Part shown: in pieces, positions 1 through 47,083 of the stretch
How positions within the stretch are numbered: position 1 is the stretch's first letter
Layout of the letters: each line of letters opens with the position of its first letter
Assembly (NCBI RefSeq): GCF_963675165.1
Contig: NC_087377.1
Span: 10,340,632-10,404,631, forward strand
DNA: 64,000 nucleotides
Direction: 5' to 3'
Origin: Halichondria panicea
Lineage: Eukaryota; Porifera; Demospongiae; Suberitida; Halichondriidae
Position numbers and translations under genes: made by a program
Notes under the pieces: generated by a model
Told to the model about the DNA's origin: nothing
Database searches by the model: none
Seen by the model: only the letters and a program-made list of their open reading frames with translations

Positions 1-2024
1 ACTCTGGCTCTTCTAAAGCCACCTTTAGGTCTGCCTTCTCTTGATCTTCCTCCAGGTTCCCTCCATTACAGGATGGAGCGTTGGGGAGCACGAACTGAAG
101 TTTCCTGGGGGGTGGAAGATCTGGTGGGGGCATATCAAAGACGTAACGTGGGTTATTGTTATCGAGGGGGGTATTGGGAGTACTCGGTGTGCTAGTTGAT
201 AGAAGGGCACGTAACGGTTCTCCACCAGGACTCTCATATACAGGACCACCTCCTTCGTAAATGGGGTTTAGTTTTGTGGCTGATGATCTTGTTCGCAATG
301 TGCTTGGTCGTCCATTATTGGCCGTATCAACCGAGATTTTTCTTAGATCTGAATGTATGAGGTATAATTAATACCATGCATGCAGATGTGAACAGTCAAT
401 GTTTGAGATGCTCTTACATTTTGCTTTTTTCCTTTGCTTGCAGTAAAGAGCTAAGAAGATGAAGAAGAGTACAAGGGAAACGACCAAACACACAGCAAGC
501 CCTCCAATGGCTGTGTTATGTATTTGCACTTGTTGATGACCTATATACATGTGAATAGACACGGAAAGTGAAGCAAGCTTAGCAAAGCACAACACACCGG
601 TGAACAAGTCCCACTGTTATCGTAAATTCAAAATAATTATAGTACATGGTGGATTTCAAAACAAACTACTTCGCTCACTCTGAGAAGGCAGTGCTTCTAC
701 TGTGCTTTGAACTACAGCAAAGCACAACACAACACACCAGTAAACAAGTCCCACTGTTATTGTCAATCACAATTTATAGCACATGGGGAATTTCAAAACA
801 GAATGCTTCACTCACTCTGAGAATGCAGTACTTCAATAACAATATCTTGTCTTGACACAGTGAGTCCTACTGTGCTTCGTTCTTCTATAATTACTGTATA
901 ATTAGCTCCAACACTCAGTCCAGAATGAACACTGTACAAAACATCACCATAGGTTTGTAGGGTAGAGTTTCCGGAAACGTTCTCAAGATAAACTGTATAC
1001 TCGACATCTTGGAAGGAACAAACATAGGCCGGCTGCATATATATAAATAAACATTATCCAATGCATGCATGTGCATGTATGCATGGTATTCTTTAAGTTG
1101 AACGTACTTTAAACCATATCTCCAAGTGTGGTGCACTGTCTCTGTTGTACAAAACTCTCCATTGAATTTCAACAGGATCAAGTGCTATAGAAAAAACAGG
1201 CATGAAAGGACATTCAATTTAGTAATTGACTTACGAATTGGATATCCTGCAATGACACTTGCTGCATTGCTCCCTAATGAGTTGTATACTGTCACAGTGT
1301 ATTGTAGCTCGTGGCAATTGCTAGGGGCAGTATCGATGACATCCACATACATACGTTGTTGACCCAATGTCACATTTCTCATTGTGGAATCAGACGTGTT
1401 GTAAATTAGCAGTGAGTATGCAGTGATGTTGAATCCAGTGTGGGTGAAGGGTTTGTTCCAAGTGATGGTGAGTGACAAACCGTTATCGGTGTAACTGAAT
1501 CGTGGCTGGGGTTCAGATGGTGGTCCTGTGCATATATACGAGTTTAAATACGCACACACATAGTATCATTGGAGCCTAAAGTATCTATTTTTTTTATTAC
1601 CTACTTGTTACCTGCAATAATGAAGAGCTTGTCTTGTTGGGTGTTCGGGTCAAAACCAAAACAAGATATTTTCGAACTATTGTTGTACTCATAAGCTGTG
1701 ATAGTCAGCCTTAAAAGCAAGTAATCCGATATAGTGTCATTCCTTATAGGGACATTAATAATAAAGAAGCCCCTAGTCGGGTCAGATTGGTATCTAAAAG
1801 TGTCGTTGATTTTCCACTCCGCAGAGCGACCAATTACCTCGCAAATGAATGTGATGTTTCCACCTGGGGCTACAGCATCAGTTGACTGAGAGAAATTTAA
1901 TATTTCTGAAGAAAAATCATCATGACAGCAACATATAAATTAAGGCTTTCAATTATTTACCTGCAGTTTGCACTGATGACAGAGCCATTGTAAGGAACAG
2001 TTTCACTACGAAACAATAGTACAT
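1..2024 (-). CDS. G1: Ig-FN3-FN3 transmembrane receptor with NPIY tail, cut by the window edge
   Basis: Seven exons join in frame on the minus strand: 1961-2024 (signal peptide MYYCFVVKLFLTMALSS), 1612-1905 (Ig), 1235-1525 (FN3), 1108-1184 and 832-1032 (second FN3), 418-613 (membrane span, GGLAVCLVVSLVLFFIFLAL) and 348 down to the edge (cytoplasmic tail). All junctions are GT-AG and the ectodomain exons are phase 1. The 5' edge of the membrane exon is less certain. The tail shows NPIYEGGPVYE, STSTPSTPNTP and PPPDLPPPRK; the YTVM motif seen in sister genes would lie outside the window. It should be a type I plasma-membrane receptor whose tail offers PTB-type (NPxY) and SH3-type (proline-rich) docking sites. 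It starts 428 bp from divergent G2. The domain calls are visible; ligand and signalling sense are unknown. Confidence 0.85.
581..835. repeat. Tandem duplication of about 125 bp at an exon edge of G1
   Basis: Two direct copies, about 581-705 and 716-835, both begin agcaaagcacaacac and both run through tttcaaaacaga/aa into ctcactctgagaa. The second copy covers the splice donor of the FN3 exon and the first overlaps the start of the membrane exon. It looks like a local slip duplication inside the intron of G1. Confidence 0.7.
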
Positions 2025-2452
2025 CTTTAACAGCTTGCAACGATTCCACTGAACATTATGATTATAGCTAGTTCGAGGATGTATCATATATGCGTTTGTT
2101 TGGCATGCAGATTATGACTAGAACAGATAATGAAACCAAAAACAGAAATGCTTCTGTATACATAGTTAACACCGTACGTGCAGCACTATGACAAGTTATG
2201 CAATACAAATTATTGTGACACACAATATAGAGGGCTCAAACAGATCGAGTTAAAGAATCAGACAGTATGAATAAGCCTAACAGTTGCTAAGTATTGCTGA
2301 CATGCACATGAATGCATGAATTCAATTACATTTTATTAAGAAATGTTTCCCTATCTCACCACAATCCCCACACATATGCATACCTGCACGTATAGCTCGG
2401 CTATAAACAGACTCAGTCTCATAATCTTTACACATAGCTACCTCATGCAATT
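2025..2452. promoter_or_regulatory. Divergent promoter interval between G1 and G2
   Basis: The start codons of G1 (-) and G2 (+) face away from each other across 428 bp with no coding sequence. On the plus strand a TATAAA lies at 2402-2407, about 45 bp before the G2 ATG, consistent with a core promoter. No TATA box is obvious for G1. Shared control of the pair is inference from spacing, repeated at other pairs in the window. Confidence 0.6.
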
Positions 2453-4649
2453 ATGCCAGGATCCAAGTCATCAAGTCTGTGTGCAGTAGCTGTCTTAGCG
2501 ATAGCGCAAGTTTTGACTGTTAACTCAACACTATGTATATGTAAGTCACAGTTACAAACACATCGCTATATTCTGTGTATGCATGCATGTTATGTATAAT
2601 ATATATTTTCGTCTAACAGCTTGCACGGCACCATTACCGTACCTACAAAAGATAATTTCCCACCCTGCTAGAGAAATCCGATATGAAACTGTCGCAGACT
2701 TACAAAACCCACTATGGTGCATCGATGGAGTCAGTGCAATATCAAGTCGTCTTGATAGGTTTGGTGACATTGAAGCACCAGAGGGACACATTCTTACATA
2801 TACCAATCCTTTATCAAGTGATGTGGCCAATAATAAGGTGCTGTATTTAGTTGATCATGCAACGAACAGTTGCACTGATATCAACAGTGCAGTGGAAATA
2901 TCTTCAGCAGTTGGAAATATAAGCTCAGCCATTTTGATAATGTTACACATTGTCGAAGGTACGTGTGTTTCACTTCATGATAAACCTCACACAACTCTGT
3001 TCACTAAAATAATTGGCTAATCTAACCACTCACAAATACGCATGTATATTGCAGCTACCTCATGTCCTAAACCACCACCCCTAATGAACGGACGAGTGAG
3101 CACCACAATCGAAGAGGACAATAGTAGAGAAATCCACACAGCTGTCTACAGTTGTGATGCAGGATATTACCTGGATAGCAACGAGACAAGAGAATGTGTG
3201 AGAGAGATTGACGAACAGATTGGACAATGGACGAGTTCACCACCAGCTTGCATTTGTGAGTTATTAACTAAAATTATACTTGGGTCAATTGATGTTTACA
3301 ATGCATGTAATTACAGTGCAACCCCTCTTTAAGGGACACCTTTGGGCCCTTATATGTACAAAAGGTGGCCCCTTGTTTAGAATAGGGGTTCTTTTGTACA
3401 CAAAGTGTTCATTGCAGCGGACCTGACCGTAGGCCTTTATATCGTAGTTGACCTTTCTTCAGTGGTGGCAGTTAAGAGGTGTTCCACTGTGAACTTACAT
3501 ATGTTACCTTATACAGCTATTACATGTGAAGTGCCGACAATAGCCAATGGTACCGTTACCAATAGTGCTTTTGATTCTGACGAAATGCAAACAAATGAAA
3601 CTGTAGAATACGGAACTGAAATAATCTATCGTTGTAATGCTGGATTCAGTCTAGCTGGAGATTATCTACCAAGAACTTGTCGCCAGAGTAACAACAGTGG
3701 CGTATGGAGTGGTACAGCATCATATTGCAAGCGTAAGTGAATTGATTTAAACACTTGTATTTTACTTTTATCACTATACAGCTAATAATTGTACACAACT
3801 ATCTGAAATCAATTATGGCCTCATGCCTGAATATCAGGATTCTAACGACACAGCTCTAAACAGTTTGAATCAAGTTGCCTTCTCAGTGGGAACTATCGCT
3901 AGCTACGGTTGCCAGAGAGGATACAAGTTAAGCGGCAATGGAACAAAAGAGTGTCTTCTTACTGGAGAGTGGAGTAGTCCAGGAAGTGTTGAATGCAAAG
4001 GTATTGTTGTGCTTTATTTTTTGGTGACTCACTCTCTCATTACATGCATGTTGATGTGCAGTGATAGAATGTCCTCATTTGGAAAAACCTTTGAACGGAT
4101 CTATAAGTTTCAGCAGCAATTTGACAGTTGATGGAGTGGCAGAGTACACATGTAATGATGGCTACAAACTAGACAGAGGGAGTGCTAACAGAACATGTTC
4201 TTTAGATAATGATAATACTACTGCCACTTGGGATGGTTATCCTGCAGTATGTACACAGAATAGTCTTATTAGTAAGTCAAATCCTAGCTCATGCATGCAT
4301 CAAAATTAATCACTGTATTTGTATAGGTAATATGCAAGAAGCATTGAATGGGACTATGAATAATGGGACACAGAACTGTGAACCAGAACACTCAAAAGAA
4401 GTCAATGACATTTGGAGAGCAATATCAATTGTCATGGGGGTTTTGTTGTTGCTATTTGGAATTCTTGGATTAGCAGTATTCATCTGTGTCAGGAAATCAA
4501 GGCAAACGAAGGAATATCCCATACACAATAACGAAGCAATCACACACTGTCCGGTATAAATAAAAACATATTATGTTCATGCACCATAATATGCATCGTG
4601 TACATTTTCCTTTATACAGGATGTGATTGTCAATAATAATGAACTTTGA
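2453..4649 (+). CDS. G2: WCI-domain plus four-CCP transmembrane protein with short tail
   Basis: Eight exons give a 509-aa protein: 2453-2540 (signal peptide), 2620-2958 (WCI domain), 3055-3255, 3517-3732, 3782-4000 and 4062-4271 (four sushi/CCP modules), 4327-4553 (membrane span) and 4620-4649 (tail end and stop). The total is divisible by three. The WCI exon carries CTAPLPYLQKI, then NPLWCIDG, a TYTNPLS turn and LYLVD, and matches no family I know. The CCP exons show the usual four cysteines with G-x-W near the end (GQWTSS, GVWSG, GEWSS). The membrane segment is ISIVMGVLLLLFGILGLAVFI. The tail is only about 30 residues, with one tyrosine (KEYPI), so it probably does not signal strongly alone. 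CCP modules bind proteins in complement and adhesion receptors; the ligand here is unknown. Confidence 0.88.
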
Positions 4650-4869
4650 GAAAGAAATACAGATAATTGACTGTGAGGGTGTGACTTATACAAACTACAA
4701 AGAACACTACTGTTAATACGGGTATTGACTCTCACAACAACATGAACTACCTGTACAGAATGTTCACACCATCTAATAGTACATGTGCAGTGTCTTGCAT
4801 TATAATTATGTTACATACCAGAGTTGAAATGTAATTAGGATTGTGCATTACTGAGGTGATTATAGGAAG

Positions 4870-6720
4870 TTACACTTCTGGGAGGGTGGTCAAACTCGGA
4901 ATAACAAGTGGAGATGGTCTTGACTTCCTCCCTGTCCTAACATTAGCTGGCCTCATCACTGTGTACTCATCTCCTAAGCGTGCTGTCTTAGGCATCTCTA
5001 TGTTTGAAAAATCTAATTTTTGCGTCTCATGAAGGGATGCGATGTCAGGGGTATCGTAAGGTACAGAGTATGTCGATGCTTTCCTCGGAGGGGGTAGACT
5101 AGGGGGGAGCATATCGAACGTATAGCGAGGACTGTCGAGGGGTGTGTTTGGTGTACTGGGGGTGCTGCCGAGGAGGGTACGCAGTGGTTCGCCTCCAGGG
5201 CTTTCGTAGAGGGGGCCTTCATATATCGGATTTGTAGCTGCACATTTTGTCTGCAGAGATAGTGGTCTCTGGGGTATCGTAGGTGTAGCTACAGTACCTC
5301 TTAGAGCATTCTTAATTTTTTTCTCTGAAATGAAATAATTATTTTAAAAATGAACCGATTAAGATTGATAACATTTGCACTTACTTTTTTGTAGTCTACA
5401 CTGCCTGCAATACAGAGATAAGACAATAATCATTAAAACAGCGAGGATGGCAAAAAAAGCAGCAAGAGCTCCACTAATGATTTGGTATGTTAACATTTCT
5501 TGTCCATATTCCGCAGTACATAAACATGACGAAGTAGTCAAGCCTAAAATCAAATATAATTATAGCACAGATGACACTAAATTATGCTTACCTTCGAGTT
5601 TCTGTTCAAGAATAGCGACCTTTTTCTTAGTGACAGTTAGCCCGGCTATGCTCTCAGCTTCCACCACAACAGTGTAGTTAGCTCCACTGCTCAGTCCAGA
5701 GTGAACACTATAGCGATTATCACAGTAGTTAAGGAGAACTGTTTCTTCGATGGACTCCTCAAGGTAGACAGTGTAATTCACCACTTGGAAAGAGCAAGAA
5801 TAAGCAGGCTGTATATAGAAGGCAACAAAGAGTAAAATACATAATAATTATAGAAACATACTTCAAACCAAATTTCCAAATGAGGAGAACCATTTCCTTG
5901 ATACAGAACTCTTGACTGAATTTCCACAGGTGCAATGTCTGCATACTGGCATTAATTATTGACTATACACAACATTTTATGTCACCAATTGGGAATCCTC
6001 CAGTCACAGAAGCCGTAGAATTTCCAACTTCATTGTATGCCGTCACAGTGTATTCCAACTCAGTGCACATGACCGGCAGGATACTAGTATACATGTACAC
6101 ACGACGTAGTTGCATGTCAATAGGTTCACTTATAGTCTCATGGTTGGCGGTGTTCATTATTTCCAGAGTGTAACGAATCACATTGAATCCAGGGTGGGTG
6201 AAAGGTTCGTTCCAGTTTAAGGTTAATGAATGATTGTGGTTATTGTAGCCCAAACGTGGGAGAGGGTTCGATGGGGGACCTAAAAAGTATTGGTTAAATA
6301 ATATCCGTATCGAGATATAAAAAAAATACACACACACATATACCTGCAACAATGAGGTATCTGTCTTCCTTGTGATTGGTATCAACAAAGCATGTAATCT
6401 TGGTCTTGTTATTTGTAGAATTTGCTTGAATTGCGACACTGAGGACCCACAGTCCAGCATAGTTTTGCCTCTGTGAGTATATACCAGAGCTGTCCCTTAT
6501 ATCGAACAAAGGAACATCGTTTATCTCCAAATACACTGATATGCCAGTAGCCTCGCAGTAAAATGTCATGTTTACATTCGGAGGAACAGCTGCTGCCGAC
6601 TGATTGAAGCTGATAATCCCTATGGAGTATAAGTTTATATTGATTCTATAGTAAGTAAACTTTACCTTGAGCATTCGAATTATGTAGGAGAAAGATTAAA
6701 GCAATAATGAAGCAAACCAT
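4870..6720 (-). CDS. G3: Ig-FN3-FN3 receptor with complete tyrosine-motif tail
   Basis: Seven exons sum to 510 codons plus stop: 6666-6720 (signal peptide MVCFIIALIFLLHNSNAQ), 6344-6619 (Ig), 5986-6279 (FN3), 5862-5938 and 5592-5808 (second FN3), 5385-5543 (membrane span, about residues 328-352) and 4870-5324 (tail). The tail holds NPIYEGPLYESPGGEP (tyrosines near 394 and 399), STPSTPNTP, the SH3-like LPPSLPPPRK and DEYTVM (tyrosine near 480). NPxY is a PTB-type site and YxxM a PI3K-SH2-type site in other animals; use here is inference. Exon sizes and phases mirror G1, including the 77-nt middle exon, so the two are close paralogues. It is tail-to-tail with G2 (220 bp apart) and head-to-head with G4. 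Confidence 0.9.
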
Positions 6721-7076
6721 TTTTTACACAGTTTTGAATCACACTGATCTCCAACTACTACAGTTGACTGCTCAAACTGCATTGTAGAAACCTTTTGTAG
6801 ACTATCTCATGAGCTTGTGTATGACAAACAATTGAATATCATTAATAATGAAAGCATAAACATTACAATAACAGTATTCAGTAATTAAAAATGACGGAGA
6901 TTGAAAAGAAATAACAAAATAATTTACAGGTGAAGTATAATAATATTATTATATCCAATCAGGCTAACATAACACATTAGTAGTATACATTTCCTGGAGT
7001 TAATCATCCATCCACAGCCCTTAGTATAAAATGCGCTCCCCAGCACACAAGTGTACTGACCATGCATTAAGCAAAG
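6721..7076. promoter_or_regulatory. Divergent promoter interval between G3 and G4
   Basis: There are 356 bp between the two opposite start codons. A clear TATAAAA at 7025-7031 sits about 46 bp before the G4 ATG, and a CCAAT lies near 6954. No coding potential is seen. The layout repeats that between G1 and G2. Confidence 0.65.
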
Positions 7077-9105
7077 ATGATTAGTTTGACTCAAGCGATT
7101 CTAGCCTGTGTCACGCTAGTTGTAGTCACAATTGTTGGTGCAGCTGTAGAAATATGTCAAGGTAAGTGTTACTTATAATTAAAAAAATTACCTGTGGTCC
7201 TCCTTGTGCTTAGAATCGAGATGTCCCGGTCCTCTTCCACAGATGCAAAAGATTGTGGCGGGAGACAGAAAAATTGAATATTTTCTTAACTCATCGTTAG
7301 TAGTAAACAACCCTTCATGGTGTATTAACGGGTTTCACGTCACAGATAACGCCATATTTACTATGATGCAGTTCCACGTGGATGACAATAACATACTTGT
7401 TTATAATCCTTCTCCTGATGATCGAGCTAATGGACTAACACTTTATGCGGTAGACAATGATCGTGACTGTACCAACAATACGAACCTGATCACCGTACAG
7501 TCGAATGTAGGAAACATATCAGCCAGACTTGTCCTCATTCATATTGTTGAAGGTATAATGAATTCCTTATGATAATCTCAAATTTAAATCACTGACAGTT
7601 AACTATGATAGTGTGTGCTCTCTGTTTCAGTGTCATGCCCAGCATTACCTCACCCAGTATATGGGAAAGTAGTGCATGTGACAGATAGAACAGCCAATTA
7701 CAGCTGCAACCCTGGGTTCAACCTAAATGGGAACAGTACAATAACTTGTGTAACAAATACTGTTGAGAAAGTGGGGGAATGGATTGATTCTCCACCAACT
7801 TGTGAACGTGAGTTAAACAAAGCAATCAAAATTATAATTATAACTCCCTGCTAATTTATATAGCCATTACCTGTGAAAGACCACAAATAACTAATGGTAC
7901 CGTGGAGTTTTGCGGTGATAGTCAAGAACCAAACAGAACATCTTTCGGAGCTATTGCCACTTTCCATTGCGATGAAGGGTACATTTTGAGTGATAACACA
8001 ACTCTAAGTTGTACTTACGGAATAAGTACAGAAAACTCCTCGAGCGAGAATGGTAACTGGAGCAGCACGCTTCCAACTTGTGAACGTGAGTTAAACAAAG
8101 CAATCAAAATTATAATTATAACTCCCTGCTAATTTATATAGCCATTACCTGTGAAAGACCACAAATAACTAATGGTACCGTGGAGTTTTGCGGTGATGGT
8201 CAAGAACCAAACAGAACATCTTTCGGAGCTATTGCCACTTTCCATTGCGATGAAGGGTACATTTTGAGTGATAAAACAACTCTAAGGTGTACTTACGGAA
8301 TAAGTACAGAAAACTCCTCGAGCGAGAATGGTAACTGGAGCAGCACGCTTCCAACTTGTGAACGTGAGTTAAACAAAGCAATCATAATTATAATTATAAC
8401 TCCCTGCTAATTTATATAGCCATTACCTGTGAAAGACCACCAATAACTAATGGTACCGTGGAGTTTTGTGGTGATGGTCAAGAACCAAACAGAACATCTT
8501 TCGGAGCTATTGCCACTTTCCATTGCGATGAAGGGTACATTTTGAGTGATAACACAACTCTAAGGTGTACTTACGGAATAAGTACAGAAAACTCCTCGAG
8601 CGAGAATGGTAACTGGAGCAGCACGCTTCCAACTTGTGAAGGTAAAATACTTGTATAGTTCAATTTGTGAATTGAACATAATAGCCTTGTGTTTCTTTTA
8701 GCACTACAACCCCCAACAACCTCAGTTACACCAGGTAAGTTATTATGCTCACACTATATATGTTTGTACCATCTCCTGCATCACACCATAATAGTCACTA
8801 AACCAATAATAATCAAGATAACAGATCCAGAAGGCATCTCAATAGTTTTAAGTGCTTTTATTGTGGGACTAGTGCTAGGTGTCCTTGCAGCCAGTGTGGT
8901 CTGTTATGTCTGCGTCAAAAGAACTCCGACCATATATCCAATAACCAGTGTAAGTCATATAAACATTCACTAATCCTGTACTTAACTACTATGTGTAACT
9001 TTGCAGTGTACAGTGGAAGGAAACTTAAATAGAAACGATGTCTTAAACGGACACAATGATTATCAAATGGATGGAATTGAAGACTCGCAAAAACAAGATT
9101 CATAA
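7077..9105 (+). CDS. G4: WCI-domain plus four-CCP transmembrane protein
   Basis: Nine exons give 507 aa: 7077-7161 (signal), 7214-7552 (WCI domain, 339 nt exactly as in G2), 7631-7807 (CCP1), 7864-8085, 8142-8363 and 8420-8641 (CCP2-4, 222 nt each and almost identical), 8702-8734 (short Pro/Thr linker), 8825-8949 (membrane span, IVLSAFIVGLVLGVLAASVV) and 9007-9105 (tail, stop at 9103-9105). The WCI exon shows CPGPLPQMQKI, NPSWCING, YNPSPDDRANG and LYAVD. The tail is short, with TIYPITS and NDYQMDG. Its role is probably ligand binding at the surface as partner of divergent G3. The three identical CCP exons point to very recent internal expansion. Confidence 0.9.
7864..8641 (+). repeat. Three tandem 278-bp exon-plus-intron units in G4
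   Basis: Units start at 7864, 8142 and 8420, exactly 278 bp apart. Each holds a 222-nt CCP exon and, for the first two, a 56-nt intron. Exons and introns alike differ at only a handful of positions, including an in-intron a/t change. Copy number may vary between individuals or be misassembled. Confidence 0.95.
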
Positions 9106-10166: not shown

Positions 10167-13100
10167 TCAAAGAATAGACACGTACTCGTCGTGGGTGTCT
10201 AGACTCGGTCCCAAGATAAGGGGGGAGGGCTTGTTGGGACGAGAAAGAGACTTTGGAGTAACTGGGTTCATCACTGTGTACATGTAAGCATCTTCACTCG
10301 GAGGCACCGCAGCATTGAACATAGCATTTATGTTTTCAATCTGACAGGTACTAGGAGTAGGTGGGTTACAAGTCGTGGGGGAGAAAGGAGACGAAATTGA
10401 AATTCTCTGAGGTGCCGCACATGAAGTTGGAGAAAATGGTACAGAGATGGATGTCCTCGCTAGTGGACTACAGGCTGTTGGTGAGAAGGGGGAAGAAATT
10501 GAAATGGAGGTTTTTCTTGGAGGGGGCAGCTGGGGGGGCATGTTGAAGTATCGAGGGCTTTGAGCCGAGGGGGTACTGGGGGTACTCGGGGTGCTATGCA
10601 GGAGAGATTTTGAGAGCGACGGGTCCATAGGGTAATCGTATAGTGGTCCACCGTCATATATAGGATTGGTGGCAGACTTTTGTTGGGTCAAGGGGTTCAT
10701 GAGTTTGATGCTGGTTGGTGGAGCTCGCCTTGGAAAATCGACGGTATCTGGGTTTGGAAAACAACCGATTTTTAAATAAACAAGACAGTGAATGCTATCT
10801 AAACAAACGTCTACTGTGATGAGTGCATAGTGGGCTTGATGAATGTAATACATGCACTGTGATACACTCTGGTTTGCAGCTGCACAAAATTCATCTAGAT
10901 TGGAGCAAACCACAGATTTTGTAACGTGGTCAAATGTCGAATGCATCCTAGACATGAAAGTTTCACACACATACACACAACTCACCAGTTCTTTGGGTGA
11001 ATTTCCTACGCCTCTTATACACGCAGCATGCTGCTACAATGACAATCACCATGACAACAATTCCCAATACAATTCCGAGAAAGACAGCTAGCGATGCAAT
11101 TATGGACGTTGTGGAATCGCTTGAAGCACCTGTTGGAGTTAGAATACACACGGAGACATAAAATGTGAGAATATTACCTGGCTCGTTGCAAACAGGGATG
11201 GGACTGGACCAGCTTGCAGTGGGGAGACAGACCCTGTTCCATACAATCCCATCATTGCATGTGTACAAGGCAACAAGACCACTTGAAGCTTCGGTGATTT
11301 GTACATGTCCGTTAGGTGGATCCAGCAGTCCTCTGTCACACTTGATAGCTATAATTTATAACAGAAACACGTTTTAGCTTGGAATCATCGATCGCAGCAA
11401 TGTGCTCTAACTCACATCGGCACTCAGGTGCTTCTCCGGACCAACTCGTGTTGGGTAAACACGTTCTAGTTACAACAGTGTCATCGTTGCAGGCGTAGGT
11501 GGCCACAAGTCCCGTTGGAATTGTTGTAATATTTACACGACCATTCGGAGGAATAGGTAAATCCCTGTTGCAGTTGATAGCTAGTTGGGAAGAGCAGAAA
11601 ATAGTGCATTTTCACTTATAATGATTAAACAGATAGGTGGTTTACATGGGCAGAAAGGTGCCATTCCAGACCAGCTTGAATTGGACAGGCAATTTCTGGT
11701 TACCAGTGGTAGAGATGTATCGTCACACCTGTAAATGGCTACCAGGCCATACTGGGTGTTCGATACTTGCACAATACCGTTTGGCAGGCTAGGAAGGTCC
11801 GCATTGCAACTATCACCTGTGAGATAATAATTAAGGTAAGCGTGTGTGTAGTGGCTCTGTGTGTGCAGTTGCTCTGTAGTGTAATATTCAAAGAGTACAA
11901 CAATACATGCAGTTGAAAACTGAAGTTTTAAAACCCATGATTTACTGAGCTCAAGAATTTAAATACCATACTCTCCCTCCACACATGTAGGCCATTAGCA
12001 AATACTGAAGCCACCTAATACAATGTCATGTAGTTGATTAGCAAGTTATGCATTTTGTAAGGGTTCTGTTGTCAATTGGGGAGAAATGTAAACACTGAGT
12101 CAAATAAACACTTTTAGAAAAGCATGTATATCTGGCTACGTACCTTATAACCATCATTCCACAAATATGCATTTTGTGAACATGCATACACTGTAGTTCA
12201 GTAAAGCTGTACTTGAAAGGGTATAATTATGGACTATGAACACACTATACAAATAGCCATCTTCTTGAAGAGCTTACCAACAACAATCCCTGCAAAACAA
12301 AACAAGAGAAAAGTGAATCATTCATCATAACACCCACTCTTAACTCACTTTCGTCTTTGATAACGGTGTAACTACCCAAAATGCTGTTGCCAGTGGCAAC
12401 CACCATGTACGTTTCCCCCACTTCTAAACCTTGGTCCACTAGCAGGTCGAGCATAAACTGTTCTTGAATATTTCCGACCAGTTTCTCTGCCATTATTTCG
12501 CCATGGTGATATACTATGATGGTGTATTCTGTATCCTCGTGTAAACAAGGGTCTTCATACTGTGTGAATATTGCGGATGACTATCACAGAAGCATATTAT
12601 TATTATTTTGGGGTTTTTTGAAGTAAGTTTCCGATCCTAATAAACTACCCTGAGCTATACAAAACCACTTTTCCTTTACGACTTAAGTCTCAAGTTATGG
12701 GGGGCACTCAAACGCTGTACATATATATATACACACACCTCGGCTCTTATGGTCAGTCTAGGGGTCAGATCTGAAGCAAAGGTCAATTCCACAGTCAGTT
12801 CAGTGGGTGTGGGAGCTGTAAGTGAAAGATGAGAGAGAATTTTAAAACAATTATTGGGACAGTTGGCTCATGGGGTAATGAATAATTAATGCATACTTTA
12901 TAAACAGGTTTAATGTTTTTGCATTAGGAGACTTATTCTTTTTGTGGAGGGGTGCCTACGAGTAAAAACTTATGAAAGCAGCTCGTTATACTGCTATATG
13001 TATTGTGTATATGTATCACTAGCGCAATAACAATGTCATTAACCTTTGGGGAATATTCCAAGTTGATGACTCGTGGCATTTCCCAGGATACTGTATGCAG

Positions 13101-17451: not shown

Positions 17452-17453
17452 TA

Positions 17454-18965: not shown

Positions 18966-19193
18966 TCAGACATCAGATACTTGGGCAAATGGATTTGAAG
19001 ACTCTCCATCCATCACCGTATCCAAGGTTATCACTCCATTGCTGGTTGTACTGCCCACCTTCCCTCTCATCTTGACGTAGCACTGGTCAGCACTATCAGA
19101 GTTGTGCGTGCTGTACCTCGGCTCAGCAGTCGCCTGATTCTGAGGCTCGTAGCTCTGAGCTAACAGTGAGTTCTCAAGAGTCTTCACACTGTG
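18966..19193 (-). other. Possible extra terminal tail exon for G7
   Basis: A 75-residue open stretch ends in SSNPFAQVSDV and a stop, after an acceptor-like cacacag. It contains SYEPQNQ, RYSTHN and CYVKMRG tyrosine contexts and reads like a cytoplasmic tail. It would join the G7 tail exon in phase only through a weak donor (gtctag) after KAAYL. It could be an alternative 3' end of G7 or a remnant of a deleted neighbour. Confidence 0.4.
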
Positions 19194-19396
19194 TGTATAG
19201 ACCACAACGATAATAATAACTATGAATGAAAGTGGTGACTCTCAGCTATTACATAATAGCTCTCAGGTAAGGTCAATTAAATCTATCAAGCTTTGGTCAT
19301 TTGTTTTAAGTGGATGGGGGTATATTATTATAATCTAGTTATTGTTCCAACATAACAGGACGCACTATGCATATACATTTTCAATTGTCTCTATAA

Positions 19397-31597: not shown

Positions 31598-31622
31598 AAC
31601 AAAGCCAATCCCCTTTCAAATC

Positions 31623-32365: not shown

Positions 32366-32409
32366 CTCTCTCTATAATTATAGCTATACCTCTACTGAGC
32401 AGTTGAGCA

Positions 32410-34021: not shown

Positions 34022-34054
<33 letters not shown>

Positions 34055-35244
34055 CCTTTCAGAGTGTGTTTATTATTGTTTTGTATCACTTCTAGCCTTA
34101 CTAAAAGATACAAGCACATGGTATGTGGAGGAGGGTCACATGCATGTAACCTCATACCTATATCACCTGTGAATTTATATCTCGTGTATGAATTCAATAC
34201 AGAAAAACAACACCGTGTATTCCCATGTTTCAATGGTATGCCTAATTGTCTCTGACCTTCATGTATTTCACAGTTACAGTGAACACTACCAGTTCAACAT
34301 GCCCTGAATGCCGTGAGTTATTTCTCTAGTTCAAAGCTTAAACCATGCCATGCAGTTGCTTCACATTGGTATGCTTAAATGTCTCTGACCTAGCTTTATG
34401 TATTTCTTACAGTGAACACTACCTGTTCGACATGCCCTGAATGCCGTGAGTTATTTCTCTAGTTTAACGCTTAAACCATGCCATACAGTTGCTTATAGAG
34501 ATTACAGTTGTCTCTACATGTATTCAGATCACATGCATGTATATAGCATGTCAACAGGCAGTGGTTTCAATAGACTGGCACTATATGCAACCTTTTACCT
34601 CACTTGACTAAGCAATTAAGAAGCAGAAATGTGCCACGACCTCAAGTGTGTAATAGAGTGCACAGAGCTGATATAGCTAGCAGTTGACACAATTATTATG
34701 TTTTCTCTATAAGGTTTTCAAGTGTAGTGGAAAGGGTTGTACTATAATCATTCGTATATGAACCCAATTCTTTGTAACCACAGCAACACTACCACCGAAT
34801 ACTACTGTCACAACTGAGCCTTATGCAGTGACCTCTATCACAGAGGACAATATCACATGTACTATGTGCCAGACTACATGTAAGTATTTTGACTGTTAAG
34901 GATTATTGTCATGTATTGCATTCAGATTTCTTTACATATGTCATCAAACACTGTACCACTTAGTAACAGAGCTTACATATGTAGTGCTTGAGTGAAGACA
35001 ACAAATTTCTTTAGCTTCAGCTATTTGCACTTTGTACATTCAATCAATGTCATTAGAAGACACCTGTTGTTTATAATTATAGCTAGCTAGAATGTATAGC
35101 TCCCACTATTCACGCCAGCTGATCCTCTCTACATTCTCGACTACAGGTCCTCCCCATGGAGCCGCATCGGAACGATCAGCGTCAATCTTCTCACTCATAC
35201 TACTCTTGGGACTATTGATTATCATGATTGTGAACTTACTATAG
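32410..35244 (+). CDS. G8: single-Ig-like, probably GPI-anchored surface protein
   Basis: Six exons give 237 aa: 32410-32470 (signal MYKTSIPRFLLACMVAQAAF), 32554-32940 (Ig-like domain with three well spaced cysteines), 34274-34312 and 34413-34445 (duplicated short exons encoding NTTxSTCPEC), 34784-34879 (Thr-rich stalk) and 35147-35244 (C-terminal hydrophobic end FSLILLLGLLIIMIVNLL and stop). The total is divisible by three. The end of the protein is a hydrophobic run with no tail, after a small-residue region (GAASERSAS), as in GPI-anchor signals; a tail-less membrane span is the alternative. The 1.3-kb intron after the Ig exon shows no second Ig. No divergent partner is seen, perhaps because the transposon block inserted upstream. 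Confidence 0.7.
34021..34061. repeat. (TC)n microsatellite
   Basis: A run of tc dinucleotides inside the large intron of G8. Confidence 0.8.
34235..34500 (+). repeat. Tandem duplication of a G8 stalk exon
   Basis: Two copies of about 130 bp (from gtatgcctaattgtctctga and gtatgcttaaatgtctctga) each hold one small stalk exon and its donor ccgtgagttatttctctag. Both copies keep phase 1, so stalk length grew by exon duplication. Confidence 0.8.
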
Positions 35245-36918: not shown

Positions 36919-39017
36919 TTACTCCTTATACTTGCTTGTCACTTCAGGATTCGTTTCTCCCCATCCTCCGTTTAATGAGTTCCCAAACGTACGGCTTACA
37001 GCAGGACTCATAACCGTATAGTTCGCATCTTCCTCCGATAATGGGCCACTTCCTGATCCCCTCTTCTTAGTACCACTTTTATCAGTGCCATTTTGATCAG
37101 CGTCAGAGAGTGTAAGGTGTAGCTTGTTCCTCTCGTGGTGTGGACGTTTCTCGGTTGAGTTGCCAGATAAGTTCGAGGATCGATAGCTAGTGCCGGCAAG
37201 AGGTGATAAAATCCTGTCGTTTGGCTGAGTAGGGAGGGTGTTTTTGCGAACAAGATCAATGATACCAGTACGATATGTAGGGTTGGCTGTGCAATGAATG
37301 TTGTCATTGAGGGGGGTGGTGGGGGAGGAATCAGGTGTGGTGCTAGCTGAGGAGCAAAGTGGATTGTATCTTTGTGGAACAGTCTCGTACACGGGGCCAT
37401 TATAAATGGGATTTTCGATCATGGCTTGTGAGGTAGATGTGCTCTTCCTGTTTATTCCTGTATACATGCATATAATTCATGTAAAAATAATTATGTATAT
37501 GGAACAATTACCTCTGCGTTTATTCCTACATACGAGACAGCATGTCACACAAATGAGCAATGTCAGCAATAGTAGACCAGAGAGCACTCCAAGTAGTACA
37601 GACACAATTTGAAGTGTACCACCTGCTTGGGAAGAAGACAAACAACATGCAGTGCATGTTTTATTAATACACAATGTACCATTGTTAGACAATGATGAAT
37701 TTGTCGATAACGACCGTTGCAAGTTGAATTCAGTATCTGTAATCATAAAGTCAATTAGCTAATGAAGCAAAATTTTATGCAGCGTACTGAAGATATTTTG
37801 TGATGAGGATATTCTGCTTAATGCTAATGCTGTAGGATGAAATGATTCGATTTCAATCCAAACTGTATATTGTGTATCAATATGCAGGTTGTTGCTTATC
37901 TCTTCTCTTATCAATCCATCCATAGCCACTTGTTTAGGACCAAACTCCAGAGACTGGTTTGTAGCCGTAATCATAACAAAGTATGCATATTTGAGAAGAT
38001 GACAAAGACTTGAAACCTAATAAATTTTTGTAATGTAATGAAGTAGACATACAGTAAATAAAAAATTAACCTGAGCATGAAGACTTAAGAGTGGATTCAA
38101 ACTTTTGTCAAAGTACACTGAGTGCCTGTTGCTAAACTCAATTGATGGTAGTACTGCATTGAAGTACATTTCATTAAGCTAGAATGAAAACAACTTCGTA
38201 CAAACTCACCTACTTGGGGTGATGTAAAAATGAATTCAATGGATGTACTTCTGCCAAGAGTAGGACTAACAGATGTTGCACTTACCAAATACTGTGAACA
38301 GTTCTCAAACTGAAAGACATCTTTTGAGATGCTAATAGAACTTGTCATAGTTGGAATTGAAACACTGTAGAGCACACCATCAGATCGTTTACAATCAGTT
38401 TGAAGGGTAAGAGTCAAATTGTAATGAGAGCTGCCAAAATCAAACCAAAACGAGGATGTTTGAATGAGCAACGTCATGACGGATGGCCATTCACTCACAT
38501 CCAATGTAATGTTGGGTGGTTGAATTTCTAAACGACAAGTAAATAATATTTATATAAATGAGTTATACTCTGTGCAAGTATAGATCTAACTCACGGTATA
38601 CTTGAAGAACAGCTGTATCACTTGTTACAGATAAAAAATTGGTTGCAATAGCAACACAATGAATTCTGGTATTGTTCCTCAAAAGTGTCCCGCTAACAGT
38701 CATGCTCAAGTTATAGGTATCCAGCTGACGAGAGAACAATGGTTCAGGGAGATAAATATCTGGTGGTGGTTGGCCCCAGTCATATGGATGTTCTAACTCA
38801 TGACCGTTAATATACCAAGTTGTTAAATGGGCATACGCCTTGCAGTTAAATATGGCGCTTTCTCCAATCAGAATTGATTGACTTCGAGGCTCTTCAATGA
38901 ATTCAACTGTATACAATGGCAAGAATTTAATAATCATAGCTTTACGAACATAAGCTCACCACCTGCAGCTGCAATGCTAATGGCTGTTGCAGCCAAAGCA
39001 AAAACAAGTATGATCAT
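36919..39017 (-). CDS. G9: Ig-FN3-FN3 receptor with NPIY/YTVM tail (copy 1)
   Basis: Seven exons give 587 aa: 38960-39017 (signal), 38595-38906 (Ig), 38210-38527 (FN3), 38071-38153 and 37788-38016 (second FN3), 37512-37736 (membrane span, VSVLLGVLSGLLLLTLLICV) and 36919-37457 (tail). The sum is divisible by three and phases match G3. The tail has IENPIYNGPVYETV (tyrosine near 427), PDSSPTTP, NPTYRTG, ANYTVM (tyrosine near 555) and a C-terminal SKYKE; the PPPRK motif is absent. Just before the membrane a Cys-rich segment (CINKTCTACC) could form interchain disulfides. It is nearly identical to G11, 5.58 kb away, and divergent from pseudogene psi10. Confidence 0.88.
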
Positions 39018-39409
39018 CTATTCTTGGAGATTAATGTTTGAAGAGGACAGTAATAATTATTGCTAATGATTCTTTTGGGCATGAAGTTTTTATATGCATG
39101 TGATCAACAGCAGCAGAATATCCTGCATGACAAAAAAACAGCCCTGCCTCCTTTTTCAAAATAATACTCAAACTCCCACATAATAATTATAGATGCTATG
39201 TCACCCCCCTTTGTTTGCATTGTCTACATGCACTCCTGTCTGTATTCATAGCTGGGCGGTAAGCACTATACAGGGACTGTGCAAGGGCCGTCTCTTGGAC
39301 AGTCGCTGTATAGTGCATGCATGTATATTAGACTGATCTCAATGTAGAATCTTATACATAATTATAGAACCTGCATCTATCATGCTCAATCAAGTGAAAG
39401 AAGAACAGA
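39018..39409. promoter_or_regulatory. Divergent interval between G9 and psi10
   Basis: 392 bp between opposite start codons. It is homologous to the G11-G12 interval, except that the latter carries a 950-bp insertion. Confidence 0.5.
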
Positions 39410-40510
39410 ATGGCAGTTGCACTGACACTATTGTATATATTTTCCACCCTTACTCTGCTCCACAGGTAAGATAGACTTTATAATGGTATAATCTCACAGA
39501 GTCACTTGTAACTTTGCTTCTGCAGGGTCATCCACTGATGTGTACCAACTCTGACAGTTTCCACAGAAACAGCTCAACAAATTCAATTAACATGCTCTTT
39601 CAGCTGCTCAGCTGTTTACAACTCAATAGAATGGAATAGAGAAAATACATCATGCAGTAGTTAGAAGAATCATTCATTGACAAGAACATTCTGAGCTTCT
39701 ATTGTATCATTGGACATGCAGAAATCCAAATAACTGCTTGAACACTGCATGAAATTGCATGTACACTCTATTGATCAACCTATAAACCGCCCTAAACAGT
39801 CGAGGTAATAGATGTATACTACCCTCTGTGTCCTGCGTTGGTTATAATAATGGAGTGCCATATTTTAGTCAGCTCTTTAGTCTCGTAGACCTCGTTTCAT
39901 CAATCTCTTAAGTTGTATATGTATAGGTACGTGTGAACGGGAGTCAACCAGATAGGCCTATATTAACCAGTCATTTCAGCAAATCAACTCTTCGCTATAT
40001 TGCTCAGTGAACTGCTCTTACAAATACATAATTTGGAGTAGAGCTAATCATGAAATTGACAATGTCAACACAATCGATTAAGATGAATTTAAAAAGCGTC
40101 TACAACATAGTGACTGTATACAATCGAAATTGCACCATAGATAGAACTGCTCCGCAAATTTATGAACTCATTATCAACGTTTTGATTCAAAATACAGTTT
40201 CAACTTTGCCAAACATTACTTTTATAGGTGTGCTACAGATGAGAAAAACTTGAATAGATCATGTCTTCATGCAGTACAAATACACAGTAAAAACAGATTC
40301 GTTATAATAACATAAAACATCTCAAATAAAATGCATCATTTGAAATTTAATGTAGAAATGACAGAAATTTATGTCATTTCTACATTAAATTTCAAATGAT
40401 GCATTTTATTTGAGATGTTTTATGTTATTATAACGAATCTGTTTTTACTGTGTACTGTCGATATAATCATGTAGCATCTATAATTATGCCTATACTGATC
40501 CAAGTAAGTG
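39410..40510 (+). pseudogene. psi10: decayed copy of the two-Ig gene G12
   Basis: Follows G12 from the signal exon (MAVALTLLYIFST) to the end of the second Ig exon (tatactgatccaagtaagtg), but has small insertions and deletions that shift the frame in every exon, several stops, and a 174-bp hairpin inserted near the end of the second Ig. The short Ser/Thr and hydrophobic 3' exon of G12 was not found. It is the plus-strand partner position of G9, so this unit kept its signalling receptor and lost the partner. Confidence 0.85.
40281..40454. repeat. Perfect 174-bp hairpin (83-nt arms, 8-nt loop)
   Basis: Left arm 40281-40363 and right arm 40372-40454 are exact reverse complements, with spacer gaaattta. 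In G12 the matching site has no such insert. It looks like a recently made foldback element or palindromic insertion. Confidence 0.95.
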
Positions 40511-40524
40511 ATGCCAGTGAATAC

Positions 40525-41300: not shown

Positions 41301-41349
41301 CCTGGCCTGTTATATCACAGTTCGTCTTTTCGTTTTTCTTCAGGAGGTT

Positions 41350-42488: not shown

Positions 42489-44596
42489 TTACTCCTTATA
42501 CTTGCTTGTCACTTCAGGATTCGTTTCTCCCCATCCTCCGTTTAATGAGCTCCCAGACGTACGGCTTATAGCAGGACTCATAACCGTATAGTTCGCATCT
42601 TCCTCCGATAATGGGCCACTTCCCCTCTTCTTAGTACCACCATTTTCAGTGCAATTTTGATCAGCCTCTTTATGGCTCCTTCCAAGAGAGAGGGTTAGGT
42701 GTAGCTTATTCCTCTCACTGTGTGGTCGCTTCACAGTGGAGTTGCCAGATAAGCTCGAGGACCGATAGCTAGTGCCGGCAAGAGGTGATAAAATCCTGTC
42801 GTTTGGCTGAGTAGGTAGGGAATTTTTGCGAACAAGATCGATGATATCAGTACGAGACGTAGGGTTGGCTGTGTAATGAATGTTGCCATTGATGGGGGTG
42901 GTGGGGGAGGAATCAGGTGTGGTGCTAGCTGAGGAGCAAAGTGGATTGTATCCTTGTGGAACAGTCTCGTACACGGGGCCATTATAAATGGGATTTTCGA
43001 TCATGGCTTGTGAGGTAGATGTGCTCTTCCTGTTTATTCCTGTATACATGCATATAATTCATGTAAAAATAATTATGTATATGGAACAATTACCTCTGCG
43101 TTTATTCCTACATACGAGACAGCATGTCACACAAATGAGCAATGTCAGCAATAGTAGACCAGAGAGCACTCCAAGTAGTACAGACACAATTTGAAGTGTA
43201 CCACCTGCTTGGGAAGAAGACAAACAACATGCAGTGCATGTTTTATTAATACACAATGTACCATTGTTAGACAATGATGAATTTGTCGATAACGACCGTT
43301 GCAAGTTGAATTCAGTATCTGTAATCATAAAGTCAATTAGCTAATGAAGCAAAATTTTATGCAGCGTACTGAAGACATTTTGTGATGAGGATATTCTGCT
43401 TAATGCTAATGCTGTAGGATGAAATGATTCGATTTCAATCCAAACTGTATATTGTGTATCAATATGCAGGTTGTTGCTTATCTCTTCTCTTATCAATCCA
43501 TCCATAGCCACTTGTTTAGGACCAAACTCCAGAGACTGGTTTGTAGCCGTAATCATAACAAAGTATGCATATTTGAGAAGATGACAAAGACTTGAAACCT
43601 AATAAATTTTTGTAATGTAATGAAGTAGACATACAGTAAATAAAAAATTAACCTGAGCATGAAGACTTAAGAGTGGATTCAAACTTTTGTCAAAGTACAC
43701 TGAGTGCCTGTTGCTAAACTCAATTGATGGTAGTACTGCATTGAAGTACATTTCATTAAGCTAGAATGAAAACAACTTCGTACAAACTCACCTACTTGGG
43801 GTGATGTAAAAATGAATTCAATGGATGTACTTCTGCCAAGAGTAGGACTAACAGATGTTGCACTTATCAAATACTGTGAACAGTTCTCAAACTGAAAGAC
43901 ATCTTTTGAGATGCTAATAGAACTTGTCATAGTTGGAATTGAAACACTGTAGAGCACACCATCAGATCGTTTACAATCAGTTTGAAGGGTAAGAGTCAAA
44001 TTGTAATGAGAGCTGCCAAAATCAAACCAAAACGAGGACGTTTGAATGAGCAACGTCATGACGGATGGCCATTCACTCACATTCAATGTAATGTTGGGTG
44101 GTTGAATTTCTAAACGACAAGTAAATAATATTTATGTAAATGAGTTATACTCCATACAAGTATATAGATCTAACTCACGGTATACTTGAAGAACAGCTGT
44201 ATCACTTGTTACAGATAAAAAATTGGTTGCAATAGCAACACAGTGAATTCTGGTATTGTTCCTCAAAAGTGTCCCGCTAACAGTCATGCTCAAGTTATAG
44301 GTATCCGGCTGACGAGAGGACAATGGTTTAGGGAGATAAACATCTGGTGGTGGTTGGTCCCAGTCATATGGATGTTCTAACTCATGACCGTCAATATACC
44401 AAGTTGTTAAATGGGCATACGCCTTGCAGTTAAATATGGCGCTTTCTCCAATCAGAATTGATTGACTTCGAGGCTCTTCAATGAATTCAACTGTACAATG
44501 GCAGGAATTTAATAATCATAGCTGTACGAACATAAGCTCACCTGCAGCAATGCTAATGGCTGTTGCAGCCAAAGCAAAAACAAGTATATAGATCAT
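42489..44596 (-). CDS. G11: Ig-FN3-FN3 receptor with NPIY/YTVM tail (copy 2)
   Basis: Seven exons give 590 aa: 44542-44596, 44179-44490 (Ig), 43792-44109 (FN3), 43653-43735 and 43370-43598 (second FN3), 43094-43318 (membrane span) and 42489-43039 (tail). All introns match G9 in place. The ectodomain and membrane exons differ from G9 at only a few residues, while the tail has more changes and a net gain of four residues near HLTLSLGRSHKEADQN. NPIYNGPVYE and ANYTVM (tyrosine near 558) are kept. Divergent partner G12 is intact. The pattern suggests recent duplication or gene conversion of the 5' exons with faster change in the tail. Confidence 0.9.
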
Positions 44597-44837
44597 CTAT
44601 AATTATATTCTTGGAGATTAAATGTTTGAAGAAGACAGTAATAATTATTGCTAATGATTCCTTTGGGGCATGACATTTTATATGTGATCAACAGCAGCAT
44701 GCAGGATATCCTGCATGACAAAAAAACAGCCCTGCCTCCTTTTCAAAATGATACTGCCCAAAACCCCCCTTTGTTTGCATTGTCTGCATGCACGCCTGCA
44801 TGTGTCTGTATTCATAGCTGGGCGGTATGCCCTATGA

Positions 44838-45791
44838 ATATATCTCTTTCCTTGGCAATCTGTTGTAGAAATTACAACAATGGGTAAGGAATCGTTATGA
44901 TGAATTAGATGAAGTTGTATGTGAGCTCCTCCCTGACAAACAAACTGTAGTCTAGGTAACCGCCTTATCAGTCAAGTAGGCTAAAAATCTGTGTCCTTTG
45001 ATGTAAGCTTTGATGTCTCTTTGTGCATATGTAGTTATAAAAAAAAAAAAAAAAAAAAAAGAAACCTTTGACTAGCTAGGAAGAGTAGCAGCAGTAGGCA
45101 GCAGTAGTAGTAGCAGTGCAAGCAGGACTAGACTAGATTAAAAAGTTGGTGGAAAGAATAACTGACCGTTTGGACGTCACCTGGCTGCCAGACTTTCATC
45201 TGGACTCTTCCCCCTGAGTAGCTGGCCTTTCTCTAAGCCACAAAACTGAGCAAGAAGCTGAAGAAGCAGCTAGACAGAGACATGTACCTAGCCTTGAGAA
45301 TTGGGAGGCGTGGCTCAACTAGTTAGCCCAGCCCAGAGGAATTGTTACCGTGGGTACTGAACAACCGTAGAAGTAGGGCTACCCCTGGCTTTACTGAATT
45401 AACTAGCTGTGTCTGCTGTCTAGTTGGACCAGATTTAGCTAGATAATGGGGTAGAGAATAGTTGAGCGGTGCTGTGTGTAGCTTGAACTGTACTGGCTGG
45501 CAAGAATCTAGTAAGCACCCTATGCACTGATAACTCGTCAGAATGGAGGGTATGTTCTAGGGATCTGGACAGCTGTACATCCAAAGGAGCCAGGGAGTGC
45601 CAATCATCTTCTCCCAGTCTCTGACACGCTAAACAAAAGGAGCTAGAACTGGGAGTCCCAGCTAGAATTGCTAGCCGGATCTAGACTAATAGAATGACTT
45701 GGAGGCGTGGTGAGGCCGGATCCACACTAATTGATCGACCTAAAGACGCTCCTGTTCCAGATTTCACGAATGGCAAGGAAAGGGATATACA
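44838..45791. mobile_element. Insertion of about 950 bp in the G11-G12 promoter interval
   Basis: Absent from the G9-psi10 copy. Ends show inverted similarity (atatctctttccttggcaa and ggcaaggaaagggatat). It holds an A-run at about 45040-45060 and no ORF. It probably is a non-autonomous DNA element; the exact target duplication is unclear. Confidence 0.55.
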
Positions 45792-45900
45792 CTGCAAGGG
45801 CCGTCCCTTGGACAGTCCCCTGTATAGTGCACATATATTACCGGTAGTCAATGTAGAAAATCTTACATAGACTGTCCCAGTCAAGGAAAAGAAGAACAGA

Positions 45901-47083
45901 ATGGCAGTTGCACTGACACTATTTTATATATTTTCCACCCTACTCTGCTCCACAGGTAAGATGGACTTTATAATGGCTATAGTCTCACTTGTAACTTGGC
46001 TTCTGCAGGGTCATCCACTGATGTACCAATTCTGACAGTGACCACAGAAACATCTCAACAAATTCAATTAACATGCTCCTTCAGCTGCTCAGCTGTTTAC
46101 AACTCAATACAATGGAATAGAGGAAATACATCATTGGATGTAGTTCAAAGAATCATTGATGAACATTCTGAGCTGCTTCTGAACGTAATTTCATTGGACA
46201 ATTCAACTAACTGCTTGAACACTAAAAAAGTGTACACTCTATCGATCAACCTAACCGCCCTAACAGTCGAGGTAATAGATGTACTACCCTCTGTGTCCTG
46301 CGTTGGTCATAATAATGGAGTGCCATATTTTAGTCAACTCTTTAGCCTCGTAGACCTCGTTTCATCAATCTCTCAAGGTGAGACTATTAAGTTCGTATAA
46401 TAATAATCAATTAAAGTTCTTGCACTTCCCTGTATGTAGGTATAAACGGGAGTCAACAAGACAGGCCTATATTGACCAGTCACTTCAGCAAATCAATTCT
46501 TAGGCTATATTGCTCAGTGAACTGCTCTTACAAATACGTAATTTGGAGTAGAGCTAATCATGAAATTGACAATGTCAACACAATCGATCAAGATGAGCGT
46601 CTGCAACATAATGACTACAATCGAAATTGCATCATAGATAGAACTGCTCCGCAAATTTATGAACTCGTTATCAACGTTTCGATTCAAAATACAGTCTCAA
46701 TTTTGCCAAACATTACTTGTATAGGTGTGCTACGGATGGGAAAGACTCGAATGGATCATGTCTTCAGTGCAAATACTATTAATATAGCATCTATAATTAT
46801 GCCGACTGATCCAAGTAAGTGAAGCCGGTGAATAGGCTTTACTTTTTTAAATCCATTCACGTGATCTCAGGTGTTTCTAAGTGTCAGCATTTTGTTTGCT
46901 ACTTCTCATATCTAAAAGCTGTTTTGTTGTTTTCTTTTTTTAGGTGTGACACCACCTCCGAGCACTTCGGATGGTTCAACGCCGAGCAGCATAGTAACAG
47001 GTTCAGCAGCAATACCTAGTTTCTCTCTGACTCAATTATCTATAGTTTTGTGTTTAATAGCTATATCACGAACAATGTTGTAG
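45901..47083 (+). CDS. G12: two-Ig-like, probably GPI-anchored surface protein
   Basis: Four exons give 312 aa: 45901-45955 (signal MAVALTLFYIFSTLLCST), 46009-46377 (Ig-like 1, LTCSFSCSAVYNSIQWNR), 46440-46814 (Ig-like 2, LYCSVNCSYKYVIWSR) and 46944-47083 (Ser/Thr/Pro stalk, then a hydrophobic end SLTQLSIVLCLIAISRTML and stop). Both Ig-like domains share the spacing C-S-x-x-C-S...W and a C-IG/VGH C-terminal cysteine, so they are internal duplicates. No cytoplasmic tail follows the last hydrophobic run, as in GPI-linked proteins. It is divergent from G11, taking the place that WCI-domain genes take beside G1, G3 and G5. There is no known family match beyond Ig-like. Confidence 0.8.

Follow-up and report, generated by a model that had tools for sequence, protein, structure and literature searches.

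Gene content of the locus

The 64,000-nucleotide stretch of the genome of the demosponge Halichondria panicea analysed here (C1:10340632-10404631; hereafter the window) carries a cluster of predicted surface receptor genes on the minus strand, five of which each face a plus-strand surface gene (G1/G2, G3/G4, G5/G6, G9/psi10 and G11/G12; Table 1). Within these pairs the starts lie ~230-1304 bp apart, counted from start codon to start codon (i.e. 428 bp in G1/G2; 356 bp in G3/G4; 231 bp in G5/G6, from ATG 14045 to ATG 14277, with alternative ATGs giving 189-288 bp; ~0.37 kb in G9/psi10; and 1304 bp in G11/G12), which confirms the head-to-head layout reported in a preliminary description of the window. 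Gene models were spliced during this analysis, and that of G3 is identical to RefSeq LOC135345397 across 510 amino acids, so that the model is sound at least for this gene. Intron phase was mostly 1 in the spliced models, and some weak splice sites were present in G7, G9 and G11.

The receptors G1, G3, G5, G7, G9 and G11 display a similar structure, with a signal peptide, an immunoglobulin (Ig)-like exon, two FN3 domains, a transmembrane segment and a tail. Their description as Ig-FN3-FN3 proteins with a tyrosine-motif tail holds for this layout and needs two amendments: G5 contains three further CCP/sushi domains, and the Ig assignment lacks Pfam support. Above the Pfam cut-off we detected FN3 in G3 and in RC, a receptor located to the left of the window, and Sushi in G2, G4 and G5. 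Among the 9 + 5 proteins scanned, none had a Pfam Ig match above the cut-off, so that the label 'Ig' rests on a Cys/Trp pattern. The G1-type database protein P0005 shared 43% identity with G3. The motif NPIY was found in all six receptor tails examined (G1, G3, G5, G7, G11 and G14) and YxxM in five of them, the exception being G7, of which the piece examined ended before a doubtful final exon reading YVKM, attached through a very weak splice site. The immunoreceptor tyrosine-based inhibition motif (ITIM) pattern was found in none of the six. RC (LOC135345445; L027/L028, C1:10320457-10323773) has a frame change in its tail, its protein P0004 stopping just past NPIY, and could be either a decoy or a gene in decay. 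A structure model of the receptor (three sequences) reached a mean predicted local distance difference test (pLDDT) score of 33.6 and was not used.

The partner genes G2, G4 and G6 encode a signal peptide, a domain of 110 residues in which the motif WCI is invariant, a transmembrane segment and a tail of 24-48 residues, with four CCPs in G2, four in G4 and none in G6. Neither NPIY nor YxxM occurred in the partner tails examined (0/4; G2, G4, C and G6). Three of the four CCP exons of G4 sit in tandem units spaced at 278 bp and 98-99% identical (window 7795-8643); RefSeq P0001 has one CCP fewer than the assembly-based G4 model, so the number of CCPs may vary. The second kind of partner, G12, contains two Ig-like exons that are 33% identical to each other, with a weak V-set match below the Pfam cut-off. 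Its decayed copy psi10 has eight stops within its best match. A third, candidate kind is G8, which by eye comprises a signal peptide (32410-32470), an Ig-like-looking exon (within 32529-32951) and a Thr-rich stalk exon (34784-34879). Partners with little or no tail had been proposed throughout, and this stands for the four open genes of the five pairs; the fifth, psi10, is a pseudogene, and G6 is without CCPs. The proposal that unrelated kinds of partner occupy the same slot was supported, homology among the three kinds being undetectable (hhalign probability 0.0-0.4) and G8 matching no other kind.

No known relative of the WCI domain was identified. Homology to the G12 Ig exons, G8, or the receptor Ig, FN3 or CCP domains was tried and rejected (hhalign probability at most 4.4%, against the receptor Ig, E 0.009), and a distant Ig origin may be considered. 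Its AlphaFold2 model (three sequences; mean pLDDT 38.8) was unusable. The G5 receptor has three CCPs and its partner G6 none; CCP modules may have switched sides within this pair, and a tree of the G5 CCPs was ambiguous as to a derivation from the partner. An inverted repeat with two 87-nt arms, 99% complementary and with no spacer, lies at the end of psi10 (window 40281-40454). Relatives of G12 at C1 14.06, 14.27 and 14.37 Mb (L036-L038) match its second Ig exon, and no receptor of the family described here was matched within the 10 kb examined at each. Among the open reading frames (ORFs) listed, frames following the Ig match in L036 and L038 read by eye as transmembrane segments, and that of L036 also as a Tyr tail with SPVYEE-type motifs, i.e. 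a further receptor kind.

Joint divergence of the outermost exons

Four additional receptors (RA, RB, RC and G0), each on the minus strand, lie to the left of the window, and WCI partners follow only RB and RC (WCI-B and WCI-C respectively). When G3/G4 was compared with RC/WCI-C, receptor identity was 97% in the tail, 97% in the transmembrane segment and 97-98% in the second FN3 domain (FN2), falling to 85% in the first (FN1) and 72.5% in the Ig exon, while partner identity was 74% in WCI, 92% in CCP1, 94% in CCP2 and 94% in the transmembrane segment. Synonymous divergence (dS) followed the same course, with values of 0.62 (Ig), 0.41 (FN1), 0 (FN2a), 0.06 (FN2b) and 0.11 (transmembrane) in the receptor, and 0.65 (WCI), 0.026 (CCP1), 0.022 (CCP2) and 0.04 (transmembrane) in the partner; the G3:RC tail (dS 1.07, a frame artefact of the RC indel) and the signal peptide, CCP3, CCP4 and stalk (too short or unalignable) were excluded. 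The intergenic regions are 62% identical, with many gaps. Intron 1 of the receptor is 58% identical and the receptor-side flank, introns included, 93-98%. The diverged block has a sharp edge on the receptor side; on the partner side an edge is visible in the exons only. In this unit pair the outermost domains of both genes differ jointly, as expected of a receptor-ligand cassette.

The same pattern could have arisen if the flanks of RC/WCI-C and G3/G4 had been homogenised by recent gene conversion while old, unselected DNA remained in the middle, and we regard this as a serious possibility, if not quite a probable one. The high identity of the receptor-side flank, introns included, agrees with it, as does an intergenic region as diverged as the exons; by a hand estimate, a random 1.6-kb block in a 5.5-kb unit would span both exons about 1 time in 10. 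It accounts less well for the second comparison, of G1/G2 with RB/WCI-B, in which exons are 98-100% identical and the receptor tail and transmembrane segment carry zero substitutions. Here too the substitutions tilt towards the N-terminus, Ig, FN1, WCI and CCP1 together holding 19 of the 23 in exons (Fisher p 1.5e-5; exons grouped post hoc), although the intergenic region is 99.5% identical.

Pairing and duplication across the cluster

The cluster was enlarged by searches of the genome (131 Mb in 39 contigs) with G12, three WCI exons and G3 as queries, and the counts given are lower bounds; the profile scan covered 194 kb around the window and six 10-kb loci. All five WCI exons found genome-wide are head-to-head with a receptor, at gaps of 417, 867, 428, 356 and 231 bp, and none was found elsewhere. 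Among 15 Ig-bearing receptor loci (an inverted Ig+FN1 copy at 10420.0 kb being included, and a weak Ig match with E 0.02 at 10424.97 kb, as well as matches to FN3 alone at 10469.9-10471.4 kb, being excluded), six have an open partner (RB, RC, G1, G3, G5 and G11) and three a partner relic (RA, G0 and G9). The start distance is at most 1 kb in five of the six open-partner units, the sixth (1304 bp) including a 957-bp insert. G7 is separated from its candidate partner G8 by 10.9 kb containing repeats, and ahead of G8 the plus strand showed no first exon resembling a signal peptide. The start of G14 is 262 bp from an isolated plus-strand exon that resembles a signal peptide and has a good donor (window-scale 67468-67597, in L010); this exon is followed only by repeat-like frames and was not counted as a partner. 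The 7-mer ATGCATG was considered as a shared promoter motif in four gaps and rejected (2 found; shuffle mean 0.2, maximum 2).

Much of the repetition reflects duplication. A 9.7-kb block that begins within G0, takes in G1 and G2 and extends as far as the FN1 exon of G3 has a 97.2% identical copy 25 kb to the left, comprising RA, RB, WCI-B and part of RC. G9/psi10 and G11/G12 represent one 5.6-kb tandem duplication, with 98-100% identity in the middle of the receptor and mostly lower values in the intergenic and partner parts. The 957-bp insert between G11 and G12 is missing from G9/psi10, so the G11/G12 gap formerly measured ~0.35 kb; this repeat (44836-45792) is dispersed, a copy in L041 being 99.6% identical over 952 bp. 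In RA and G0 the match to G1 continues across the intergenic region (80.5% identical to that of G1/G2) and the first exon of G2, where it ends, the relic of this exon being 87.5% (RA) and 88.7% (G0) identical over 80 aligned bases with 12 gaps; both seem to derive from pairs that lost their partner. Independent pairing events are few, i.e. one for WCI, one for the two-Ig partners and perhaps one for G7/G8.

One chance head-to-head pair in a compact genome, copied by unequal crossing-over and having no joint function, is a reasonable possibility that we nevertheless consider improbable on balance. Duplication explains the repeats, and the receptor exons of RA and G0 stayed open after partner loss. 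At three relatives (9.89, 10.11 and 10.15 Mb) the 10 kb examined, which included 3.6-5.3 kb of upstream sequence each, contained no divergently oriented gene of a known partner kind. The baseline is also high in another sponge, Amphimedon queenslandica, where 45% of genes are arranged head-to-head, 11,379 genes having starts no more than 1 kb apart (PMC4773876). The genes studied here resemble those pairs in being head-to-head at <1 kb, which is a general feature of that compact genome, with no repeated receptor/partner theme described in the available part of the source. Chance adjacency does not, however, readily explain why one slot holds at least two kinds of partner lacking detectable homology, both of them surface proteins that have a signal peptide and at most a short tail, nor why the outermost exons of both genes are equally highly diverged and the membrane-near exons are not.

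Comparison with known recognition systems

The closest parallel is with tgrB1 and tgrC1 of Dictyostelium, paired diverging genes with a single promoter described, which encode surface recognition proteins; 1-9 tgrBC pairs per genome are given for 11 isolates, with a shortened tgrB at 13 of 25 loci, in the available parts of the sources (PMC12324515, PMC4448137, PMC8129030). The sponge cluster is alike in having six adjacent divergent units with an open partner and gaps of 231-1304 bp. The amoeba proteins contain TIG repeats, whereas no TIG (IPT) domain was found in nine sponge proteins (Pfam, E up to 1). For the amoeba genes the same portions of text report binding, polymorphism and kin recognition, while the sponge locus is known from the sequence of one assembled haplotype. 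The likeness that we propose would be one of working, not of family membership.

The Alr proteins of Hydractinia have tandem V-set/I-set ectodomains, bind homophilically and carry tails of the ITIM type or of the activating type (ITAM), and we know of no FN3/CCP partner gene in opposite orientation among them. The sponge receptors differ in carrying FN3 and in having tails without the ITIM pattern. The Alr family, with 41 genes, is an early-animal cluster of Ig-type recognition proteins in the portion of the source available (PMC11999971). Genetic linkage of receptor and ligand, together with gain and loss of genes, is also described, in the part of the source available, for NKR-P1:Clr and NKp65:KACL of the mammalian natural killer gene complex, and head-to-head pairing is not described there (PMC4041007). 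Those proteins are C-type lectin-like on both sides, whereas no such domain was listed in the nine sponge proteins (Pfam).

A word-filtered search for protein relatives returned none from outside H. panicea (2/36, 3/7994 and 3/7996 scored candidates passed, representing five different proteins). Among literature titles, subscription journals lying mostly outside the search, none concerned this locus or named a receptor-ligand locus for sponge graft rejection.

A possible cognate-pair function

We tentatively favour, at a little under even confidence, a tandem cluster of receptor/partner units in which the two members would be cognate and would act through their outermost domains, much as tgrB1/tgrC1. 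Each unit has one short intergenic region (0.2-0.9 kb, or 1.3 kb with the inserted repeat) with the receptor running one way and a tail-poor partner the other, and this shared region would drive both genes in the same cells. The adjoining receptor would have the WCI or two-Ig partner as its cognate ligand or co-receptor, bound via the outermost domains, and binding would lead to phosphorylation of the tail tyrosines and recruitment of PTB/SH2 proteins. The exons for the outermost domains have between them only intergenic DNA and the exons for the signal peptides, so that a matched pair would be kept together if both set specificity; these adjacent exons would be inherited as one cassette, with tails and membrane-near domains being homogenised.

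Several observations weigh against a cognate-pair function. The introns after WCI, CCP1 and CCP2 are only 64%, 72% and 44% identical between G4 and WCI-C, the downstream flank on the partner side is 83% identical and the WCI-C gene has two CCPs versus four in G4, so there is no clean block edge on the partner side. The dN/dS ratio is below 1 in both outermost domains (Ig 0.43; WCI 0.39), giving no sign of positive selection, and a nonsynonymous excess in CCP1+2 was not significant (p 0.13). The tail of RC is mostly lost, psi10 is dead, and no k-mer was clearly common to the intergenic regions. Five of the 15 receptor loci lack a recognisable partner (G14, the inverted 10420.0-kb copy and L039-L041). 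Tandem duplication by itself keeps neighbours adjacent, and head-to-head genes are so common in Amphimedon, as far as the available text describes, that layout alone proves little. The preliminary description had read selection for joint expression from the fivefold recurrence; as the repeats are mostly tandem duplications, repetition does not imply it. Its broader reading of a paired receptor/partner function is partly supported, the evidence tipping the odds towards a cognate pair without settling the matter and without separating self-recognition from microbe recognition.

Microbe recognition is the main alternative use. In an innate immune or symbiont-sensing module, the CCP-bearing partner would capture a microbial or opsonic ligand and present it in cis to the tailed receptor, diversity tracking microbes and not kin. 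In a comparison with solved structures, complement receptors and regulators were matched by the CCP portion of G4, and the presence of CCPs in the receptor G5 and not in its partner looks as if the module belonged to the complex; no ligand is known, however, and the WCI domain gave neither a usable fold (mean pLDDT 39) nor a known relative. We consider such a module rather unlikely.

Within the cognate-pair reading, self-recognition would be the most interesting use, and allorecognition is one possibility among several. A self/non-self locus like tgrBC, with alternative cassettes in tandem, a shared promoter, co-diverging specificity exons that travel as one unit and partial copies feeding new specificities, is distinctly improbable. 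Sponges reject grafts from other individuals, and such a locus, if true, would provide a genetic handle on this rejection, with named genes available for direct testing (LOC135345397, LOC135345445 and neighbours). The cluster would then parallel the slime-mould kin-recognition pairs in an animal and would to our knowledge be the first example in animals of receptor/ligand cassettes arranged head-to-head. Even without allorecognition, linked divergence of two adjoining ectodomain exons is a mark of cognate pairing that can be put to the test.

Features of the window

Table 1. Genes and other features of the receptor/partner cluster, in window positions. TM, transmembrane segment; GPI, glycosylphosphatidylinositol.
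Feature	Position	Strand	Description
G1 receptor	1..2024	-	Signal peptide, Ig-like, FN3, FN3, TM, tail NPIY..PVYE..YTMM; last exon extends 59 bp beyond the left edge of the window
G1/G2 intergenic region, 428 bp	2025..2452	.	Start codon to start codon
G2 partner	2453..4559	+	Signal peptide, WCI 2620-2958, four CCP, TM, ~24-aa tail; Sushi 6e-31
G3 receptor (LOC135345397)	4870..6720	-	Ig exon 6344-6619, FN1 5986-6279, FN2 5592-5938
G3 3' part	TM 5385-5543, tail 4870-5324	-	Tail carries NPIY and YTVM
G3/G4 intergenic region, 356 bp	6721..7076	.	Start codon to start codon
G4 partner	7077..8973	+	Signal peptide, WCI 7214-7552, four CCP exons, TM; 48-aa tail in RefSeq P0001
G5 receptor	10167..14045	-	Ig-like, FN3, FN3, three CCP (11178-11816), TM, long tail with NPIY, YFNM, YTVM
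G6 partner	14277..15654	+	Signal peptide, WCI 14485-14817, short stalk, TM, Tyr-free 37-aa tail; without CCP
G7 receptor	18966..21554	-	Tail NPIYAGPIY
G8, candidate partner of G7	32410..34879	+	Model incomplete, by eye
G9 receptor	36919..39017	-	Duplicate of G11
psi10	39388..40283	+	Decayed G12 copy; start set by alignment to G12
G11 receptor	42489..44596	-	Tail NPIYNGPVYE and YTVM
Inserted 957-bp repeat, G11/G12 gap	44836..45792	.	Absent in G9/psi10
G12 partner	45901..47083	+	Signal peptide, two Ig-like exons, GPI-type-looking hydrophobic C-terminus (by eye)
G13 receptor fragment	48304..49309	-	TM and tail exons only; duplicate of the G14 3' end
G14 TM and tail exons	61207..62266	-	Ig and FN3 exons in adjoining L010; start codon at window-scale 67205

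Rfam and tRNA scans of the window gave no match. A 1155-aa ORF on the plus strand (window 51656-55123) has by eye the look of a zinc finger and an endonuclease/reverse transcriptase, resembling a long interspersed nuclear element. It is preceded by a 45-bp minisatellite at 51240-51459, which occurs again at 63483-63751. Plus-strand ORFs at window 55925-58116 resemble, by eye, a transposase of the Mutator-like (MULE) type with a SWIM-like zinc finger.

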